Assembly: GCA_031315865.1 (NCBI GenBank) | Contig: JALDRJ010000002.1 | Location: 1,152,001-1,216,000 of the forward strand | Direction of reading: 5' to 3' | Origin: Nitrospirales bacterium | Lineage (GTDB): Bacteria > Nitrospirota > Nitrospiria > Nitrospirales > UBA8639 | Length of the DNA: 64,000 nucleotides | Shown: positions 12,150 through 27,546 of the stretch, piece by piece | Layout: each line of letters opens with the position of its first letter | Position numbering within the stretch: the first letter of the stretch is position 1 | The notes under the pieces: generated by a model | The model's database searches: none | What the model was told of the DNA's origin: nothing | What the model saw: the letters and a program-made list of their open reading frames with translations, nothing else | Position numbers and translations under genes: made by a program

Positions 12150-12602
12150 TCAAGCGTGAGAGAACAACCCGATGTTCAGTGGAAGGTTACGGAGCTTGGT
12201 TAATGCCCTGTCATTCGTCACAAACCAGTCAGCGTGTTGAGCGAGCGCCGTGGCCAGATGCAAGGCATCAGGGGTTCGAAGTGAGGACTCGGCTCGAAGC
12301 CGTGATGCATCATAGGCAATCCGGGCGTTCACGTCGATGAGCTCGAGATGAGGAAAATGCGTCAGCAAACCAAACACATTCTGTGCACTCGACGATAGGT
12401 GATCGCGAAATGCCGGCACCAGCAGTTCTGTCAAAACCAACGTTGAGGCTACGGCCTCGATCATCCCCTTTTCAATACGTTCAAACAGATTTTTAGCAGA
12501 ATCGTAAAAAACAGGGTGTCGTTCAAGGAAGTAGATAAACGTGACCGTATCGAGCGCAACTCGACTGCCAGAGGGAATTCGGGTTAGCGTTCCCGGTCCC
12601 AT
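12150..12602 (-). CDS. vapC: VapC-type PIN-domain toxin
   Basis: A 150-residue PIN-domain protein, probably a metal-dependent ribonuclease. The expected acidic residues are visible: the first Asp in VALDTVTFIYFLE, the Glu in LVLTELLVPAF, the Asp in RTPDALHLATAL and the Asp in FVTNDRAL. The start is the ATG at 12602 with GGGGACA immediately upstream. It overlaps the antitoxin gene by 19 nt, the usual toxin-antitoxin layout with the antitoxin first. VapC toxins usually cleave tRNA or rRNA, but the target here is unknown. Confidence 0.9.
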   Translation of the reverse strand: MGPGTLTRIPSGSRVALDTVTFIYFLERHPVFYDSAKNLFERIEKGMIEAVASTLVLTELLVPAFRDHLSSSAQNVFGLLTHFPHLELIDVNARIAYDASRLRAESSLRTPDALHLATALAQHADWFVTNDRALTKLRNLPLNIGLFSHA

Positions 12603-17472: not shown

Positions 17473-17525
17473 CGCAAGTTTCTCCATATCGAGGACAGAT
17501 TAATCGTAGAGCTTTCTGGGCCAGA
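17473..17525. mobile_element. Orphan IS3-type end (remnant)
   Basis: This stretch resembles the left end of the IS at 27210. GACAGATTAATCGTAGAGCT followed by TTCTGG differs from the IS copy by one base over about 26 nt. The segment before it (CGCAAGTTTCTCC) is a diverged version of the terminal repeat TGTAAGCTTCCCC. No transposase follows, so this is the scar of an older, related element. Confidence 0.6.
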
Positions 17526-17684: not shown

Positions 17685-17975
17685 ATGATTATTCGCTCTG
17701 TGCGCCACCGGGGTTTAAAGCGCCTCATAGAAAACAATCAAACCAAAGGCCTGCGGCCCGACCTGGTGAACAGGGTACGGAATATCATCACCGCGCTGAT
17801 TGTGGCGGAAGATATGCAAATGTTTCGGGGCGGGGCCCCACCGGGATGGCGGGTGCATCAACTCGCAGGCGACCGAAAGGGCACCTGGAGCGTGTCTACC
17901 TCAGGCAACTGGCGGATCACGTTTGAAGAAGAGAGCGGGTATTTGGACTTGTTAGATTTGGAGGACTATCACTAA
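17685..17975 (+). CDS. higB: HigB-type toxin (RelE superfamily)
   Basis: A 96-residue RelE-fold toxin of the HigB type (ribosome-dependent mRNA interferase in studied members). Recognisable segments are IRSVRHRGLKRLIE, WRVHQLAGDRKGTWSVSTSGNWRITF and the C-terminal LDLLDLEDYH, all standard for HigB. As usual for hig loci, the toxin precedes the antitoxin. The GGAG directly abuts the ATG with no spacing and cannot act as a normal ribosome-binding site. Together with the promoter position this suggests a near-leaderless transcript. It shares one nucleotide with higA (TAATG). Confidence 0.92.
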   Translation: MIIRSVRHRGLKRLIENNQTKGLRPDLVNRVRNIITALIVAEDMQMFRGGAPPGWRVHQLAGDRKGTWSVSTSGNWRITFEEESGYLDLLDLEDYH

Positions 17976-18280
17976 TGGCAAAGAAAGGGATTAAAATCGG
18001 CATGAAGCCGTCTCATCCGGGAGCGTTTATCAAAACAGAAATCCTGGATGAATTGGACTTGAGTGTGACCAAGGCCGCTGAAGTGCTAGGAGTTCGCCGG
18101 GCAACCCTGTCCGATCTGGTGAATGAAAAAGCAGCGCTTTCCCCAGAAATGGCGTTACGGCTGGAAAAAGCCTTTCACCTCAACATGGACATGTTGCTAC
18201 AAATGCAAGCCTGGTTTGATAGCACCGAGATGCGCAAACAGGCGGGGAAAATCAAGATCGTCCCTTATGTATCAGCATGA
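17975..18280 (+). CDS. higA: HigA antitoxin, XRE-type HTH
   Basis: A 101-residue antitoxin. MKPSHPGAFIKTEILDELDL followed by SVTKAAEVLGVRRATLSDLV is the typical HigA start and helix-turn-helix, and the C-terminal part is helical (MALRLEKAFHLNMDMLLQMQAW). It neutralises HigB and probably represses the operon. Its ATG overlaps the higB stop by one nucleotide, so expression is coupled. Full length. Confidence 0.93.
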   Translation: MAKKGIKIGMKPSHPGAFIKTEILDELDLSVTKAAEVLGVRRATLSDLVNEKAALSPEMALRLEKAFHLNMDMLLQMQAWFDSTEMRKQAGKIKIVPYVSA

Positions 18281-18384: not shown

Positions 18385-19575
18385 TTATTTAACTGCCTGC
18401 GTTAACGATGCAGTCACTGGATCATACTGAAATCCTGTAATCGTGCCATCCTTAATGCGCTCAACAACCTCGTCGATCACAAAGATCGGCACGAGAAACC
18501 ATTCGCGCGGCACAACGGGATTTCCAAAGCGATCCTTGATTTCAATATCAAGCCTTGCCGGATCAAAAATCCGATGAATGAGATGTTCGAGCTTACTACG
18601 ATTGATGTTAGAAAGCTTGTACGTGGCAACAACCTCCACATCCGCCATCAGGAATGTGGGATCAAGTTTGGCATTGCCGATTCGACGTTCAATATTGCCG
18701 CCGGTCACACCGATCTTGTGCAGAATATCCCGATTGGCTTCGACCACCGGATGGTCTGACTTACTCTGTAGAACATAGATGGTGCCACTTTCTTCGTCGC
18801 CCTCTTCGATTTCGGCGGAAAATAGCGGCCCATAACCTACCTCTGTAATGCGTCGTCCAGCGTTATCCCGATGAAGGGCACGTTGGAGTGAACGCAAAAG
18901 AACGTCGCTTTCCGTCCCATTGTCATAGATAACGCGAAGCCTGCTGTCCCGCCGGTCATATTCTGTAACAAATTCTTTGCCAACTTCTGCCACGTAGGCA
19001 ATCTGGCCACCAACAACAAACCATTGACCTTTCTGAATTTCAGCCATTTTTTGAAAGGGGCTAGTTTGCCTCATACCGGTTTCGAGGTCTTTCTTGACTT
19101 GAAGAAACATCGATTTGAATTCTTCAAAATTCTCACACTTCTTGCGGTTGGCAATTTCTTCCGCTGCTCTCTTCTCGGCGGTGGAGCGGACATGTCGAAG
19201 CTCTGTAACGCTCTCCGAAGAACCATCAACGCCAAGTGCTTCCAGAAGCTCGTGGTCATCTAGGTCGTCAACCTCCGGAATGGATGACGCTTTCCCACCT
19301 TCCAGCAAACCTTGCCGATCTAAAGTCCTAAGGAGATCCCGGCATTCTGTCAGGGCGCGCAGGCGATCCAAGCGCACGGCGTAGAGTCGCTCGAAAATAT
19401 CACGATCTTCCCCGTGTTGCGGGGTGCTTCCGTGCTCGTCAACAAATCGCTGAATTTCCTCGAAGCCAGCGATGATCCGTTCCTCACGAGGCGTACGACC
19501 ACCCGACGTCTTCGTCTCAATCCCGACACCAAGTTCCTCAAGCAGGGCGTCGTCTTCATCGGTGAATTTAGCCAC
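18385..19575 (-). CDS. GIY-YIG (T5orf172/Mug113-type) nuclease of the defence operon
   Basis: A 396-residue protein. The C-terminal domain (about 262-375) reads GTIYVLQSKS, HKIGVTGGNIERRI, then a conserved Glu in KLEHLIHRIF (330), and PREWF (356-360). This is the T5orf172/Mug113 variant of the GIY-YIG nuclease fold, where the second motif is KIGxT and the Glu binds metal. Residues about 37-73 (FEEIQRFVDEHGSTPQHGED) resemble a helicase-associated module. The short motif DDxLLExLGV occurs twice (about 8-17 and 106-116). It is last in the operon and overlaps the helicase gene by 8 nt. I infer that it makes the DNA cut for the methyltransferase/helicase system. It has not been shown to be active, and a regulatory role is possible. 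Confidence 0.8.
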   Translation of the reverse strand: MAKFTDEDDALLEELGVGIETKTSGGRTPREERIIAGFEEIQRFVDEHGSTPQHGEDRDIFERLYAVRLDRLRALTECRDLLRTLDRQGLLEGGKASSIPEVDDLDDHELLEALGVDGSSESVTELRHVRSTAEKRAAEEIANRKKCENFEEFKSMFLQVKKDLETGMRQTSPFQKMAEIQKGQWFVVGGQIAYVAEVGKEFVTEYDRRDSRLRVIYDNGTESDVLLRSLQRALHRDNAGRRITEVGYGPLFSAEIEEGDEESGTIYVLQSKSDHPVVEANRDILHKIGVTGGNIERRIGNAKLDPTFLMADVEVVATYKLSNINRSKLEHLIHRIFDPARLDIEIKDRFGNPVVPREWFLVPIFVIDEVVERIKDGTITGFQYDPVTASLTQAVK

Positions 19576-21631
19576 GCTCTGCCTCCGCTTTCATCCGTGC
19601 AAGATACGCGACGCCTTCGGCCATGCGCTTTTCCCACGCATCGGGCGACGTGATGGAAGGCAAGCGCCCACGTTCATGCTTGAATCTCAAGGCGCGTTTC
19701 GCAAGTTCTCGCGCTTCCTCCAAGGACAAGCTGACGCGTTTGGCTGAAATGGCAGCCTGAACTTGTTTCAGGCTATCTTCGTTCATGGTTTTGGCGAGAA
19801 TGGCATAAGCTTCCTGGAACGGATTAATCCGGTCGATCAGATCAATGTCCAACTCTCGCACATCCATGGCAAACTTACGAACGCCATCAATCAGGGCCGT
19901 ATTACTGCTTTGTTGTTCTTGGTCACCTGTTTGCCCAAGAATAGCCTTTTTGGCCTGTTGCGTGAGATTCAAGGCCGCGATGGCGTGCTGGCGAACAGAT
20001 TCCTGGTCTTGCTCATTTAATTCAGGATACTTGTCCTTGATGATCTTCCCCATGCGGACTTGGGTCAGTTCTTCCGGCACAAGCTCTTCGTCGAAAAGTC
20101 CGCGTTCAATTGCTGTCTTGTCCTGAACAAATTCTGCAATAACCTCATTCAAGTCCTCACGGCAGATGCGTGCCGCCTCTTGCGTCTTTGGTTCGGTCAG
20201 TCCCTTAATTTCGATCTGAAATTGTCCGGTCTCGCCATTGAAACCCACGTTGCATTTGTTTGGATCATACCCGCCTTCCCCGTAGTCAAAACCAGGGGTC
20301 GGCCCGCTATTCGGATTCTTTGGTTTGAACTCAAAGCGTGGGGCAAGGACTTGCTCCATGAGGAGGCTAGCCGCAATCGCCTTAAGGGTGTCGTTTACGG
20401 CCTCAGTGACAGCCTCCGTCGACGCATCAGGTTCGGCAATCAAATTCGTAAAACGCGCGCGCAGCTTTTCCGGTGCGTCGCGCGTGGCACGACCGATAAT
20501 CTGCACAATCTCTGTCAGGCTCGACCGGTAGCCGATCGTCAACGCATGTTCACACCAAATCCAGTCGAATCCCTCTTTGGCCATGCCCAAAGCAATGATG
20601 ATGTCCACATGGTCCCGGTTATTCTTCTGCGATGGGTCTTTCAACGAAGCTGAGACGCGATCACGTTTTACCGCATCGTCATCAACAAGATCGGCAACCT
20701 TGAGAACGCGACCTGTTGCAGTTTTCACAATTTGAAAGCCGGTTTCCGGGTCAGCACCCTGCCATTCGCCCAGTTCTTCGATGATATGCTCAACCTCTTT
20801 GATCTTATCCTTGGTACTCTCGCGCGAATTGACGCTCGGGATATGAATGATCGTCTTCTCTTCCTGATTTAGTACCTTCAAAATGTCGTCGGTATAGGAT
20901 CCAGAATAGAAGAAATAACCAATATCGAGCTGCTTCAGATACTCATACCCGTTGAGTTGCTCATAATATGTATAAGTGACCGTATCGAACTTTGCTTCGT
21001 CATGCGGGGCCAGAACGGCCTCAGCATCGCCACGGAAATACGACCCCGTCATCGCAAGAATATGTGTTTTGTCGCGGGCAATGAGCTGGCTAAGATGGCG
21101 GCCAAGTTTATTATCGTCATCTGCCGAAACATGGTGAAACTCATCCACGGCAATAAGACGGTTATCGAATTTCTCAATCCCGAACTTGTCAACGGCAAAC
21201 CGAAATGTCGCATGCGTGCAAACCAGCACCCTGTCATCGCATGCCAGGAACGTACCGACTGAATTCACTTTCCCACTATTGTCCCCGCCGGGCGCGTCAC
21301 AAAGATTCCATTTCGGCTCAACATGCCAATCAGCCCAAAATCCATACTGCATCAAAGGTTCATCGTGAAAACTCGCACCGATTGACCGTTCCGGCACGAC
21401 GATAATGGCCTGCTTGATACCTTGATTTTGGAGCTTGTCGAGGGCAACAAACATGAGCGCCCGGCTTTTACCTGAAGCCGGCGGCGACTTGATGAGAAGA
21501 TATTGCTCTCCGCGCCGTTCATAAGCACGCTCCTGCATCGGACGCATCCCAAGGGTATTGGCTTTGGTCGCCTTGCCGTTCCTCGCATATGAAACGGAAA
21601 TCGATGGAAACGATTTTATTTCATCTGTCAT
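19568..21631 (-). CDS. DExH-box superfamily 2 helicase/translocase of the defence operon
   Basis: A 687-residue SF2 ATPase. Motif I is SPPASGKSRA (49-58), motif II is VDEFHH (162-167), motif III is MTGSY (194-198) and motif VI is QIIGRATRD (377-385), preceded by GMAKEGFDW. The order and spacing match the restriction-type helicases of type I/III enzymes. The C-terminal 35 residues (RFKHERGRLPS, DAWEKRMAEGVAYLARM) resemble a helicase-associated module also seen at the N-terminus of the GIY-YIG protein. There is no nuclease domain of its own. The start overlaps the methyltransferase stop by 4 nt (ATGA). Likely role: ATP-driven translocation on unmethylated DNA, handing it to the GIY-YIG partner. 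Confidence 0.87.
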   Translation of the reverse strand: MTDEIKSFPSISVSYARNGKATKANTLGMRPMQERAYERRGEQYLLIKSPPASGKSRALMFVALDKLQNQGIKQAIIVVPERSIGASFHDEPLMQYGFWADWHVEPKWNLCDAPGGDNSGKVNSVGTFLACDDRVLVCTHATFRFAVDKFGIEKFDNRLIAVDEFHHVSADDDNKLGRHLSQLIARDKTHILAMTGSYFRGDAEAVLAPHDEAKFDTVTYTYYEQLNGYEYLKQLDIGYFFYSGSYTDDILKVLNQEEKTIIHIPSVNSRESTKDKIKEVEHIIEELGEWQGADPETGFQIVKTATGRVLKVADLVDDDAVKRDRVSASLKDPSQKNNRDHVDIIIALGMAKEGFDWIWCEHALTIGYRSSLTEIVQIIGRATRDAPEKLRARFTNLIAEPDASTEAVTEAVNDTLKAIAASLLMEQVLAPRFEFKPKNPNSGPTPGFDYGEGGYDPNKCNVGFNGETGQFQIEIKGLTEPKTQEAARICREDLNEVIAEFVQDKTAIERGLFDEELVPEELTQVRMGKIIKDKYPELNEQDQESVRQHAIAALNLTQQAKKAILGQTGDQEQQSSNTALIDGVRKFAMDVRELDIDLIDRINPFQEAYAILAKTMNEDSLKQVQAAISAKRVSLSLEEARELAKRALRFKHERGRLPSITSPDAWEKRMAEGVAYLARMKAEAERG

Positions 21632-24405
21632 GCGCTCGCCCCCTCTTTCTTCCTCTTCCCTGTTTCCTTACCCGCCTTCATCTTTGTATAGAGTTTAAAC
21701 AGCTTTTCAAGCCGCTCGGTGTCGTTGCGGAAGCGCCGCCCAATATAGATCCGCTCCAGCACTTCATCGTTGTGCTCATGCGCCTCCCGGAGATTGGCGG
21801 GCATGTTGTCAGGATCGTAGAGATCGGCGATTGTCGCCGGGAAATGGGCTTCACGAGCCAGGAGGATGTCTTCAGCGCAGCGCGTGAGGTCGGCTTTGTT
21901 CTTTTCGGTGAGTGTCGGGACGGGGAATGTGTTCCACGCAAGGGTGTTTGTAAACCTATAATCTGTCCTCATTCTTGAGCATACAGTTGCTACCCAAATT
22001 AAATTTGTTCGTGATGCTACAAGAGCCAGAACCCACAAATCTTTACTAGGCATTCCAAACGATAAATTGGAAATAACAGTTTCCGGCTTTAGCAAGCCGA
22101 CAGGCAGATATTCCCTATTTTCAGAACTTGTAACAGGAACGCAAATTATCGGTTCTTTTGGTAGTGGCTTTCGCTCATCAAATCTGTAAGCCCATTTTGC
22201 TGCGGCCACTGTAGCTTGTTTTTTGCTTCGTAGACGGAAGTTCCTTACCTGTTCAACTCTACTGGCTATGCTCGGAATAGCCATGGCCTCTTTTACTGAG
22301 TTGTCATCAATCCATATGCAATACCTTTGTTCACCTCTTATAAGCTCCATAGAGCCAACGAAAGAACGTATAAATTGTCTTGACTGCTCTAGTGTGAGAT
22401 TCAAATTGTCAACATCGTTTCTATTTAGAAGAAGGTGCCCACCATCCGTAGGTGAATTACCACGATCAAATTCAGGTAGTTTGGAAAGGTGCAATCTACT
22501 AGATTCTACTATTATATTTTCTCCGGAAACTAAATATGGGTTAATGTTCTCAACTTGTTTCACCGTAGTATTTTGGTTTGCATCCAAAGAATAAAGAGAT
22601 TTAGTTTTTGATCGCTTTGAAATTCCAATAATAACTACAGTTACTCCCGCGTTATGGCTTGCCAAATTCGACCATGTGAATGAAGTATGAGCAAAGCTAA
22701 TGCGATGTCCGGAAGCGAATATTAGAGGCCAAAGGGCAGCGACCTGCTGTCCTTGGCATACGGAATTTGTTGCAACAAATGCAGATGTCGTTTCTGTAGA
22801 ATTCCCATATTCAGCAGCTCTCATAAGCCATCCAGCTACATAGTCTAAAACCTTCCAATCCTTCGTTATGTTTTTGAAAACTGATTCTAAGTCAGATTTT
22901 TGAATGGATTCTTGCCTCTTGCTGCCAAGATACGGCGGATTCCCGCAGATGTATGTCTCTCCCCCTTCGTTTTCGAAGTCAATTTGTGTCTGATCCAGGG
23001 GTGTGCTAAATAAGTCGTCACTGACTAGCTTCACACCCGTTCCAGTCGGGGGACAGATACTCAGCCAATCCAACTGCAAAGCGTTCCCGCGCGTGATCCA
23101 ATTCTCTTTTTCGAGAGGCAGAAACTCTGCGAGAGCGAGCTTTTGACCGCGGTAGTGTACGTCACATTGATACTCGGTGATAATCAGCGCAAGACGTGCG
23201 ATTTCAGCTGGGAAGTCCCGCCTTTCGATTCCACGAAAATTGGTAAGAGGGATGCCAGAATGGCGGTTGGATTCACCCCGTCTCTTGTTGATCTCGGCTT
23301 CAATCTCCCGCATTTCTTTGTAGGCAATAACGAGGAAATTTCCGCTGCCACAGGCTGGGTCGAAGACTCTGATTCTTGAAATGCGACTACGCAAGTTGAG
23401 AAGTTTGCGCGAATTATCCCCCGCTTCTTCCAGCTTCGCCCGTAGATCATCAAGAAACAGCGGGTTGAGCACCTTCAGGATATTCGGGACGCTTGTGTAA
23501 TGCATTCCGAGGGCACCCCGTTCTTCATCTTCGGCGACTGCCTGAATCATCGAGCCGAATATATCCGGGTTGATCCTGGTCCAATCGAGATTGCCAATGT
23601 GCAAAAGGTAGGAACGCGCGATCTTGCTGAAACGCGGAACGTCCATCCGGCCTGAAAAAAGGCCGCCATTGACAAAGGGGAAGCCCTTTGTCCAGCGCGG
23701 AAGACCACTGGATTCCCGATCCTCCTGTTTTGTGTTCATGGCTAGAAAGAGCGATTCGAGGACTGCATGCGTGTTGGATGAATCCCTCGCACTCATTGTT
23801 TCCACGGTTCTTGTGAATTGCGCGTCTTCACCAAAAATGTCGGTATCTTCCGCAAAAAAACAGAAAATCAGCCGTGCCATGAAATGATTCATATCCGGCC
23901 GGCGCTCTTCCGTACCCCATTCCGGATTGTCCTTCAACAGTTCCACATAGAGCCGGTTCAGTCGACTGGTCGCGCGGATGTCGAAGGAGCTTTCACGCAC
24001 CTGCTGGACGGTTGTAATGCCCGCCAACGGGAGAAAAAACCCGAAGTGATCCGGGAAGTCACGATAGGCACAGGCAACGGTCTCACCGCTTGACAGATCT
24101 TCAGCTTCAAAAGTCTCCCCATCCGTTGCCAGGACGAACTTGGCTTTGGCACGCGTGGTTGCCGGACTCTCTTTCAAGGCTAATAGGGTCTTCGTGACCT
24201 CATTCGCCGCGGCGACGGCAATATGGATATTGTTGGATTGAAGGACTCCGGCTAGATCGGATTTATTGGACTCGCCCTTACGGAGCCGCTTGAGGGTCGT
24301 TTCCTTGTTACCGAAGGCTTGCAGGAAGGCGAACGGAAACTCCTGAGGATCGAATGTTTCCTCAGCCAGCGCGGAAATTGCTTCTTCAATTTCAACCGCG
24401 TTCAT
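21628..24405 (-). CDS. MmeI-family adenine DNA methyltransferase, nuclease motif not apparent
   Basis: A 925-residue protein laid out like MmeI-type type IIL enzymes: N-terminal nuclease-like region (about 20-130), helical spacer, methyltransferase with motif I DPACGSGN (349-356) and catalytic NPPY (489-492), target-recognition region (about 550-815), and a C-terminal domain containing WNTFPVP, LYDPDNMP and LFKLYTKM. The motifs indicate N6-adenine methylation. At the place where MmeI has its D...ExK nuclease residues this protein reads NNIHIAVAAANEV, so I infer it no longer cuts. DNA from about 21955 to 22915 (residues about 497-817) is much more AT-rich than the rest of the gene. GGGAAGA precedes the ATG. 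The start overlaps the stop of a 39-codon ORF by 4 nt. Confidence 0.88.
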   Translation of the reverse strand: MNAVEIEEAISALAEETFDPQEFPFAFLQAFGNKETTLKRLRKGESNKSDLAGVLQSNNIHIAVAAANEVTKTLLALKESPATTRAKAKFVLATDGETFEAEDLSSGETVACAYRDFPDHFGFFLPLAGITTVQQVRESSFDIRATSRLNRLYVELLKDNPEWGTEERRPDMNHFMARLIFCFFAEDTDIFGEDAQFTRTVETMSARDSSNTHAVLESLFLAMNTKQEDRESSGLPRWTKGFPFVNGGLFSGRMDVPRFSKIARSYLLHIGNLDWTRINPDIFGSMIQAVAEDEERGALGMHYTSVPNILKVLNPLFLDDLRAKLEEAGDNSRKLLNLRSRISRIRVFDPACGSGNFLVIAYKEMREIEAEINKRRGESNRHSGIPLTNFRGIERRDFPAEIARLALIITEYQCDVHYRGQKLALAEFLPLEKENWITRGNALQLDWLSICPPTGTGVKLVSDDLFSTPLDQTQIDFENEGGETYICGNPPYLGSKRQESIQKSDLESVFKNITKDWKVLDYVAGWLMRAAEYGNSTETTSAFVATNSVCQGQQVAALWPLIFASGHRISFAHTSFTWSNLASHNAGVTVVIIGISKRSKTKSLYSLDANQNTTVKQVENINPYLVSGENIIVESSRLHLSKLPEFDRGNSPTDGGHLLLNRNDVDNLNLTLEQSRQFIRSFVGSMELIRGEQRYCIWIDDNSVKEAMAIPSIASRVEQVRNFRLRSKKQATVAAAKWAYRFDERKPLPKEPIICVPVTSSENREYLPVGLLKPETVISNLSFGMPSKDLWVLALVASRTNLIWVATVCSRMRTDYRFTNTLAWNTFPVPTLTEKNKADLTRCAEDILLAREAHFPATIADLYDPDNMPANLREAHEHNDEVLERIYIGRRFRNDTERLEKLFKLYTKMKAGKETGKRKKEGASA

Positions 24406-24521
24406 TCTTCCCGTTCCCGGTACGCTCTAATAATAATTCCATCCAAATCTTCATCCACTTTCTCGGTCTTAATTTGACTCTGTAGCCAGCCTTTCTTGGG
24501 TTCAGGAATAGAAACATTCAT
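24402..24521 (-). CDS. 39-residue ORF coupled to the methyltransferase, ParD-N-terminus-like
   Basis: ATG at 24521, TGA at 24404-24402 overlapping the methyltransferase ATG (ATGA). The product begins MNVSIPEPKKGWLQSQIKTE and ends RAYREREE. The first half resembles the ribbon-helix-helix start of ParD/CopG-type regulators (MNVSIPEPLK-like). It is about half the usual ParD length, so it could be a mini-regulator, a degraded antitoxin, or simply a leader peptide that couples translation. AGG lies about 5 nt before its start. It begins 24 nt after the GmrSD stop. It is easily missed because it is so short. Confidence 0.55.
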   Translation of the reverse strand: MNVSIPEPKKGWLQSQIKTEKVDEDLDGIIIRAYREREE

Positions 24522-24545: not shown

Positions 24546-26639
24546 TTAAACTTCATTACCCATTTGGCGCTCAAAGGATTGGCGAACTAAACCCATGACG
24601 TAAGGTAGGTCCTCCAGATTATCTAAAGTAACTTCAATATCTCCATTACCCCAACGGCCTAGGTTAGTAACATCCTTGCACAGACCTCTCGGATCACTAA
24701 TTTCTGAGAACTCCATATTTAGGGATAATCTTAGACGTTTTGCTTGGGGAACAATATCAACGAAGTTTGTTTCCGCTTTATAAGCAACATATAGCTTCAA
24801 AAACTCCTCCGTCACACAAGGGTCGAGAGCCAAAACCTCCTTTCGGAACGCTTCATATAATGGCCTCATGTTTGTTGATAACAAATGAGGATGGTCCTCA
24901 ATTGAATAAGTTGTCGTTTCTACTTTTTTAGGTTGATATTCTGCCAATATTTCTGGAGGTAATTTTGGAATGTTCCATACATCTAAAGCTAAATGAGACA
25001 ACCTTTCTGCCCGTTCCTTAATCGATTCTTCATTCCAGTGGTCAAGTTGTCCTAGTCCTGTATTAAGTTTTAATGGGCTTTCTTTAAAACCGCCTTCCAT
25101 ATCCCGTTTTTCATTAAATGGCCGATCCCCGTATTCGGAGTTATAACCTGTTAGAGTCAGATTTCCTAAAGTATGAAGCAAGGTTTCTTGTACACGCTTC
25201 CAATCTGGCCCCAACTGGGTCTGCCATTGCTCTGAAAGGTTTTCGTTTTGCGGCAAAATGTGTTCAATCGTGTATTGATCAACTGACACGCGTTCCTTCC
25301 GCCCAAAGTTTTCTAAGCGCCGCAACCAATAACTTCGACTTCTAAAATTGTATAAATCCCGTCTTTGGAGTTCCCGACCAAACTCTTCATTGACGGGAAA
25401 CCGACGGTATGAAGGTAATTTCAAAAAATGGGCTTGAATACTTTCCAAATAACGGTCTTTCTTCAAAGCTTTTCCAAAAGTAGCAAAGGTTTTGTTCAAG
25501 GAATTGGTGGGTATTGCACAAATTGCTCTTCGAAAAACATATGCCTCAATAAGCCTGACCGCTTTTAACAATTCTTCCTTTTGCAAAATTGTTTTTTCAT
25601 AATCGTGGTACAGCTCAAGCAAAAATGGAAAGGCGACATCCACTTTCAATTCACGAAGATCATGAAAGGCTTCCTTTAATTTTGGGTCGTCCTCGGCACC
25701 AAGAGCCATCGCACAGAAATACCGGGCAAATCGACGAATGTCTTTTACAAGATTATCGATTCCAGCTTCTGCTATTTCCGGTGTTCTAGCATGGGTTTTA
25801 AACCCTTCGTAAACTTCATTTAACTTGGGTATTTCACCTGTTTTAACCGTCAGATAATGGCGCATAAAAGCGTCGAAATGGGCTCCATAAGCTTCTTGCC
25901 CAAATTCCATTTCCATCGGTCTCCAATATTGCTTATAGAGTTGTGTTTGGAGTTCCGGTTCCAGACCCATTAGGATGAAATTGCGAATTAAATCTGCCTG
26001 ACTTAATTCCTTTCCGGTGGAATTCATACTCTCAAAAATGAGCTGTGGATTGTCTTGATCCCTTGTAAGGGCAACATCAACAATGACCAGTTTTAATAAT
26101 CCCGTGCATATATCCTTATAATCACCTTGGCAACTAGCGATGAGCTTCTCAAATAACTGGAAATTCTGAACAACCCTTAAAGAATGCTGTTTGGGTAAAT
26201 CACCACCGTCAACTATGGCCGTGAGGGATTCTTTGTCAGTTTGAGATAAAATGAGCTTATGGTGGCGTTCTCCGGTTTCCTCTGGATTTAAGAGATAATA
26301 ATTTTTTAACTTCCTTTGCGAAAATCCCTCGACTGGTTCAGTATCCCCAATAGCCTTTAACAAAGCTGAAATTAAAAGCGATACGGTTGTTAGGCGTTGT
26401 TGCCCATCAATGACCAGTAAAGGGGATTGATCTGTTACTTGCGATAAGCCTGATTCGATATAAACAATAGACCCGACAAAATGAACAGAGACTTTTTCAT
26501 TCCGACCAGCCCGAATAATATCATCCCACAGTTGCAAACACTCTTTTTCGTTCCACGAGTACGTTCTTTGGTAAATAGGAATAACAAACTGTGGGGATTT
26601 TTTTATAAAAGTGAGTAACTTTGCTTCAGTAGCTTTCAT
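24546..26639 (-). CDS. GmrSD-type (DUF262/DUF1524) type IV restriction enzyme
   Basis: A 697-residue single-chain GmrS-GmrD type protein. The DUF262 half has IPIYQRTYSW (20-29) and IDGQQRLTT (77-85), the nucleotide-binding ParB/Srx-like motifs of GmrS. The second half has a His-Asn nuclease signature of DUF1524: IEHILPQN (near 458-464), LGNLTLTGYNS and FNEKR. Residues about 590-695 look like a DUF5655-type C-terminal domain. Such enzymes cut phage DNA carrying modified bases, classically glucosylated hydroxymethylcytosine, using NTP. The gene is AT-rich (21 G+C in 60 nt at 25441-25500), unlike the helicase gene, so it was probably acquired separately. It heads the defence operon. Confidence 0.88.
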   Translation of the reverse strand: MKATEAKLLTFIKKSPQFVIPIYQRTYSWNEKECLQLWDDIIRAGRNEKVSVHFVGSIVYIESGLSQVTDQSPLLVIDGQQRLTTVSLLISALLKAIGDTEPVEGFSQRKLKNYYLLNPEETGERHHKLILSQTDKESLTAIVDGGDLPKQHSLRVVQNFQLFEKLIASCQGDYKDICTGLLKLVIVDVALTRDQDNPQLIFESMNSTGKELSQADLIRNFILMGLEPELQTQLYKQYWRPMEMEFGQEAYGAHFDAFMRHYLTVKTGEIPKLNEVYEGFKTHARTPEIAEAGIDNLVKDIRRFARYFCAMALGAEDDPKLKEAFHDLRELKVDVAFPFLLELYHDYEKTILQKEELLKAVRLIEAYVFRRAICAIPTNSLNKTFATFGKALKKDRYLESIQAHFLKLPSYRRFPVNEEFGRELQRRDLYNFRSRSYWLRRLENFGRKERVSVDQYTIEHILPQNENLSEQWQTQLGPDWKRVQETLLHTLGNLTLTGYNSEYGDRPFNEKRDMEGGFKESPLKLNTGLGQLDHWNEESIKERAERLSHLALDVWNIPKLPPEILAEYQPKKVETTTYSIEDHPHLLSTNMRPLYEAFRKEVLALDPCVTEEFLKLYVAYKAETNFVDIVPQAKRLRLSLNMEFSEISDPRGLCKDVTNLGRWGNGDIEVTLDNLEDLPYVMGLVRQSFERQMGNEV

Positions 26640-27209: not shown

Positions 27210-27279
27210 TGTAAGCTTCCCCCCAAAGTAGACAGATTAAACGTAGAGCTTTCTGGCAGAATGCCCCCAGGAGGTTCTC

Positions 27280-27546
27280 ATGAAAACGAGTCGATTCAGT
27301 GAAACGCAAATTGTGGCGATCTTGAAACAGGGAGATGCCGGGCTCAAGGTCAAAGACCTGTGTCGGGAGTATGGCATCAGTGATGCCACCTATTACAACT
27401 GGAAAGCGAAGTCCGGTGGACTGGAGGCGTCAGACCTCAAGCGCCTGCAGGAGACCGAGAGCGAGCTGTCAAAGCTCAAACGGATGTATGCCGACCTGGC
27501 CTTAGAGAATCGGGCGCTCAAGGATCTGATTGAAAAAAAGCTTTAG
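27280..27546 (+). CDS. IS3-family transposase OrfA
   Basis: An 88-residue OrfA with an HTH_Tnp_1 domain (FSETQIVAILKQGDAGLKVK, DLCREYGISDATYYNWKAK). A leucine-zipper-like coiled coil follows (LKRLQETESELSKLKRMYADL, ENRALKDLIEKK). It binds the IS ends and regulates transposition. The last codons lie on the slippery sequence A-AAA-AAG (27534-27540), where a -1 shift leads into orfB to give the OrfAB transposase. AGGAGG lies upstream of the ATG. Confidence 0.93.
   Translation: MKTSRFSETQIVAILKQGDAGLKVKDLCREYGISDATYYNWKAKSGGLEASDLKRLQETESELSKLKRMYADLALENRALKDLIEKKL
27534..27540 (+). promoter_or_regulatory. Programmed -1 frameshift site A-AAA-AAG
   Basis: A classic slippery heptamer in the orfA frame, four nucleotides before the orfA stop. 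A -1 shift gives EKK-ALALAEKREAV, which is the normal OrfA/OrfB junction of IS3 elements. Confidence 0.7.

Follow-up and report, generated by a model that had tools for sequence, protein, structure and literature searches.

The locus lies in a window of 64,000 nucleotides from a Nitrospirales bacterium; by the window we mean the whole stretch of DNA that was analysed. The features of the locus and its surroundings are as follows.

Gene content and setting of the locus

12150-12602: gene of a PIN-domain protein that may be a VapC-type toxin
17476-17519 and 27213-27256: 44-nt direct repeat with 80% identity between its copies; the left copy is isolated, the right copy is the start of the IS3-type element
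17685-18280: toxin-antitoxin pair HigB-HigA, the two genes overlapping by one base and running toward the GIY-YIG gene
18385..19575, minus strand: GIY-YIG nuclease ORF of T5orf172/MUG113 type, 396 aa, GTG start; YeeC homologue (ORF list, Pfam, alignment)
19568..21631, minus strand: SF2 DEAD/ResIII helicase ORF, 687 aa; YeeB homologue (ORF list, Pfam, alignment)
21628..24405, minus strand: MmeI-architecture methyltransferase ORF, 925 aa; DnmA/YeeA homologue, gamma-class N6-adenine, with target recognition domain (TRD) (ORF list, Pfam, alignment)
24402..24521, minus strand: 39-aa ORF similar to the N-terminal half of a ParD (ribbon-helix-helix) antitoxin (tblastn)
24546..26639, minus strand: GmrSD-type gene, DUF262/GmrSD_N + GmrSD_C + DUF5655 (Pfam; best PADLOC model 'Orf5')
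From near 27280: IS3-type transposase pair, at the right end of the block

The four ORFs between 18385 and 24521 overlap by 4 nt (39-aa ORF and methyltransferase), 4 nt (methyltransferase and helicase) and 8 nt (helicase and GIY-YIG gene). The coordinates and overlaps in the ORF list agree with the chain of four leftward genes first read from the letters. The SF2 helicase and then the T5orf172/GIY-YIG gene follow directly downstream of the methyltransferase, which is the order of the YeeABC set. A single scan returned more than 540 related loci, which places the trio far beyond chance.

The 39-aa ORF had been taken as the first of the four genes. The ORF and its 4-nt overlap are real, but the ATGA overlap is a consequence of the methyltransferase start ATG AAC, codons common to most relatives, and the ORF does not share the conservation of the trio; no homologue of it was found beside other trio copies. 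It matches no Pfam family, even at E 10; against plasmids, tblastn gave end-to-end matches to ParD antitoxins, the best with an E of only 0.2. These matches make a ParD-like remnant or a small regulator the likeliest identity of the ORF, and it is probably an accessory or relic rather than a component of the trio. In other copies, small DNA-binding genes of several unrelated families often reach up to or into the start of the methyltransferase gene, and these might be operon controllers. The genes just upstream of the methyltransferase include HigA-like HTH (L007, L024, L058), RHH (L031, L043) and Xre (L068) types.

A gap of 24 bp separates the 39-aa ORF from the GmrSD-type gene (type IV-like restriction), which lies upstream on the same strand; this gene is probably co-transcribed with the trio and stands outside its core. 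As the 44-nt repeat occurs at both ends, the block from 17.5 to 27.2 kb is bounded by related IS sequence. A third related copy of the repeat is present elsewhere in the genome. Among the 60 relatives searched, the helicase was found only in the host's own genome. The IS boundaries, the HigB-HigA pair, the GmrSD neighbour and this distribution of the helicase fit a horizontally acquired defence block. Phage records gave at most partial 50% matches to the helicase, and no phage-borne copy of the trio was found among them.

Methyltransferase, helicase and GIY-YIG protein

All five MmeI domains are found in the one 925-aa chain of the methyltransferase, as in type IIL enzymes (Pfam: MmeI_N 5e-35, MmeI_hel 3e-25, MmeI_Mtase 8e-115, MmeI_TRD 5e-74, MmeI_C 2e-17). 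Its best solved relative is MmeI (5hr4, E 4e-145); a search with Eco57I (PF07669) failed to pick up the gene. DPACGSG and the NPPY region are kept across about 90 homologues. In MmeI the catalytic residues of the nuclease are D70, E80 and K82 (PMC4833311). In the alignment with the window methyltransferase the aspartate falls in a deletion, the glutamate is replaced by A63 and the lysine by A65, which bears out the earlier remark that the equivalent N-terminal stretch has no ExK. The stretch NNIHIAVAAANEV corresponds to residues 58-70, and the D...ExK of the type IIL N-terminal domain has no aligned counterpart there. One group of the MmeI-family relatives that we gathered does carry the nuclease motif (for example GFIDLFWRGTLIAEHKS). 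The catalytic D and E.K are present in all aligned full-length nuclease-bearing homologues and absent, at the aligned positions, from all helicase-linked homologues inspected.

The alignment thus indicates that the nuclease residues are lost and the domain itself is kept, since MmeI_N is still recognised by Pfam. Mean identity to relatives at 64-73% is 0.76 for the N-terminal domain, 0.76 for the spacer, 0.71 for the methyltransferase core, 0.44 for the TRD and 0.86 for the C-terminal domain. The catalytically dead domain matches the methyltransferase core in conservation, which suggests that it has another role; the motor or the nuclease may dock on it. A model of the domain (mean pLDDT 83) gave no significant Foldseek match in the PDB. 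The nuclease domain of MmeI is disordered in 5hr4 (PMC4833311) and is therefore without a solved template.

The helicase (Pfam: DEAD 2e-7, ResIII 6e-6) has all motor motifs conserved, with PPASGKS, DEFH and QIIGRATR kept across about 90 homologues, and Pfam recognised no nuclease domain in its 687 residues. The GIY-YIG protein (MUG113 2e-14, T5orf172 5e-13) keeps Y267, K287, G289, R298 and E330 across about 90 homologues; its residues 1-260 are uncharacterised, helical with an SH3-like region, the SH3-like part being weak. Pfam and these motifs bear out the identities first given to the methyltransferase, the nuclease-free SF2 helicase and the T5orf172/MUG113 GIY-YIG protein. Purifying selection acts on both downstream genes: dN/dS is about 0.03-0.05 in the helicase and about 0.08-0.10 in the GIY-YIG protein (Nei-Gojobori, nearest relatives with unsaturated dS). 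A PDB sequence search found no relative of either protein, and Foldseek found no significant PDB match for the GIY-YIG model (pLDDT 76). PADLOC and NCBIfam hold no model of the helicase or the GIY-YIG protein as a system; a hit to PbeA was weak (E 2e-4).

Nuclease loss, gene association and target recognition

Methyltransferase loci were collected from 80 genomes (methyltransferase identity 64-73%), from the flanks of the best PF20473 matches in a phylum-wide search, from 18 plasmid loci picked over a spread of similarity and from E. coli, Klebsiella and Acetobacter, and duplicates were then removed. Both the helicase and the GIY-YIG gene lie downstream of 88 non-redundant methyltransferases without D...ExK and of none with it; the 23 methyltransferases that carry the motif have neither gene. 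The Fisher p of about 5e-23 (88 against 23) is uncorrected for relatedness or sampling and, as the first group is weighted toward relatives of the window, is not to be read as a probability, although the split is clean. The other cases without the motif are contig ends, a broken locus (L076) and an interrupted ORF (L137) that sits among nuclease-bearing relatives. In L076 (Paracoccus sp.) the helicase match covers only residues 9-384 and the GIY-YIG gene is missing despite 8 kb of downstream sequence, as in a decaying locus.

A tree of the methyltransferases, made from residue 171 onward so that the nuclease domain was left out, parts the two groups without a misplaced leaf (38 and 24 leaves, support 0.96). 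The co-occurrence count and this tree uphold the expectation that nuclease loss goes together with a helicase and a GIY-YIG nuclease encoded separately. The 88 sampled loci that keep the trio together come from several phyla and include both chromosomal and plasmid copies. In 46 of 74 non-redundant loci, though not in the window copy, extra DNA of up to about 3 kb separates the methyltransferase from the helicase. These inserts often carry defence-type genes (RhuM, AlbA_2/Schlafen, Fic, Abi_2 and GmrSD_N, as well as several families that match nothing in Pfam), with examples at L012:8982-10124, L063:10790-12478, L033:14013-15155, L015:10887-11849 and L047:3496-5223 of the L002-L080 set.

Diversification is confined to the TRD (0.44); among relatives the helicase is 67-89% and the GIY-YIG protein 52-87% identical. 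Because the TRD diversifies while the other two proteins stay similar, specificity is assigned to the TRD only, an arrangement shared with Type I systems. At the positions equivalent to 806 and 808 of MmeI, 91 of 92 sequences have K-D or R-D, or else E-R (K-D 36, R-D 26, E-R 29, other 1). In MmeI enzymes a K-D pair reads G at position 6 and an E-R pair reads C, and the equivalent positions here behave like a working recognition code. The window enzyme has R813-D815, L781 and R817. If R-D reads as K-D does, these residues predict that the methylated A is flanked by G at both position 4 and position 6, and the target would be roughly 5'-NNNGAG-3', with the A methylated.

Proposed mechanism and relation to known systems

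The trio is a further copy of the known dnmA(yeeA)-yeeB-yeeC (YeeABC) set and not a new kind of system. The sequence-only reading knew of no characterised system with exactly this set; in fact the same set is published, in papers of 2020 and 2023 (PMC7261158, PMC9973331). In PMC7261158, Morgan et al. (2009) are cited as having placed DnmA/YeeA among MmeI homologues without the nuclease motif, flanked by YeeB- and YeeC-like genes, and a Type I-like system is said to have been proposed for DnmA with the YeeB and YeeC homologues. The dnmA-yeeB-yeeC synteny is conserved between species (PMC9973331). B. subtilis gave a signal for MmeI_Mtase in the phylum-wide search, and an Acetobacter plasmid homologue of the window helicase carries the annotation 'DNA helicase restriction/modification system component YeeB'. 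Our assignment is made from the missing motif and from gene content and order. The placing of the system between type IIL and type I/III is supported as a reading; a possible Type I-like action has already been published for dnmA-yeeB-yeeC.

We consider it probable that the locus is a YeeABC restriction-modification operon that functions in the manner of a Type I/Type ISP/Type III enzyme assembled from separate parts. Its likeliest action would be methyltransferase-directed, ATP-driven restriction, with the GIY-YIG protein as the cutter. The methyltransferase with its TRD would read an asymmetric 6-bp site and methylate its adenine on one strand. At an unmethylated site on foreign DNA, it would engage the helicase via shared scaffold domains, including the dead MmeI_N; the helicase would translocate using ATP, and the GIY-YIG protein would cut, probably at the meeting point of two complexes that set out from sites in opposite orientation. 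In type III and type ISP enzymes, single-strand protection goes with a need for two opposed sites. MmeI protects by methylating a single strand (PMC7261158), and by analogy two opposed sites would be needed here. Complex formation, ATP-driven translocation, cutting and the requirement for two sites and their orientation are what we infer; the gene set, the intact active sites, the dead N-terminal site, the strict association, the purifying selection and the variability of the TRD only are observed directly. We count in favour of this YeeABC model the association, the tree split, the conserved motifs, the domain identities, the dN/dS values, the TRD pairs, the V. crassostreae phenotype and the E. 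coli overlaps. Counted against the model are the B. subtilis trio, which shows no restriction, and the Foldseek searches of the N-domain and GIY-YIG models, which gave no significant match. Of the earlier proposal that cutting has moved to the helicase and GIY-YIG pair, the strict association with motif loss is upheld; DNA cutting by the trio is a predicted activity, and restriction was not seen in B. subtilis.

The B. subtilis work is also the argument for an orphan or epigenetic methyltransferase, which would mark the genome and alter expression beside inactive remnants of the helicase and GIY-YIG protein. The B. subtilis locus methylates GACGAG and affects expression without restriction (PMC9973331, PMC7261158); three phages were not restricted, and the authors use the term non-functional relic (PMC9973331), and deletions left plasmid uptake unchanged (PMC7261158). 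The B. subtilis YeeB and YeeC are without several C-terminal stretches found in V. crassostreae (PMC9973331). In the window, however, none of the motor and nuclease residues is lost, purifying selection acts on both genes, and the trio is kept jointly in the 88 loci from several phyla. In V. crassostreae, deletion of the dnmA or yeeB homologue gave higher sensitivity to some phages, as reported in PMC9973331. We therefore regard an orphan methyltransferase as unlikely.

Phage exclusion without site-specific cutting is rather improbable. The methyltransferase would sense unmethylated sites, as in BREX and DISARM, and the helicase and GIY-YIG protein would block or degrade replicating phage DNA. 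B. subtilis phages show no avoidance of the DnmA site, unlike standard type II sites (PMC9973331), and the methyltransferase is weakly similar to PglX and DrmMI. Against this, GIY-YIG domains are nucleases, neither PglX with PglZ/BrxC/BrxL nor drmA/drmB/drmC was found beside the trio, and the trio and its upstream neighbour gave no match to further BREX or DISARM families. Much less probable is a composite unit, in which the GmrSD-type gene (24 bp away in the same direction) would work together with the trio and join type IV to type I-like restriction. In L072 the start of the methyltransferase gene is overlapped by a distinct DUF262/GmrSD relative, which in L048 and L047 is placed next to the trio or within it, but such relatives occur in only 3 of 80 loci, in diverged versions and differing places, and many other defence-type genes fill the same slots. 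That MmeI_N, although kept and well conserved, still cuts via a displaced active site in an ordinary type IIL protein with passengers is scarcely credible, as the aligned D and E.K are missing from the helicase-linked homologues inspected and present in the nuclease-bearing ones, and PMC7261158 cites Morgan et al. for the finding that DnmA showed no endonuclease activity.

Within the restriction reading, it is conceivable, and we hold it only tentatively, that the trio forms a distinct mechanistic class, with one-strand methylation and a dead nuclease domain that docks a separate motor and GIY-YIG cutter, the split having arisen once in the MmeI family. The strict link of fused-nuclease loss with the two extra genes makes the proposed docking platform directly testable.

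Compared with MmeI and type IIL enzymes, the five-domain architecture is common to both and the TRD recognition positions align, but the window enzyme has no D...ExK, and other proteins have to do the cutting. Type I, Type III and Type ISP systems likewise tie a helicase motor to an adenine methyltransferase, have a variable TRD and carry defence genes nested in the operon. Here, in contrast, the cutter is a separate GIY-YIG protein rather than a motor-fused PD-(D/E)XK domain, and specificity and methyltransferase are in one MmeI-type chain; by Pfam, the trio is not the Type I set of an HsdR-type motor with fused nuclease, HsdM and HsdS. The V. crassostreae DnmA-YeeB-YeeC homologues, known here from PMC9973331 alone, are the same three genes. 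The B. subtilis set (M.BsuPY79I, GACGAG) has the same order of nuclease-less MmeI-like methyltransferase, SF2 helicase and T5orf172/GIY-YIG protein, and the last three bases of its site are those predicted for the window enzyme; no restriction was seen there, whereas every sequence test shows the window copy to be intact. The same genes with other neighbours are present on plasmids (Klebsiella pC240_1, Acetobacter pAC258-26), and the E. coli trio (EBJ003 chromosome) has the same genes and identical 4- and 8-nt overlaps, although its neighbours differ. The YeeABC set is widespread and its best studied copy is apparently inactive; because of its intactness, the window copy, with its E. coli relatives, is a better candidate for deciding whether YeeABC restricts.
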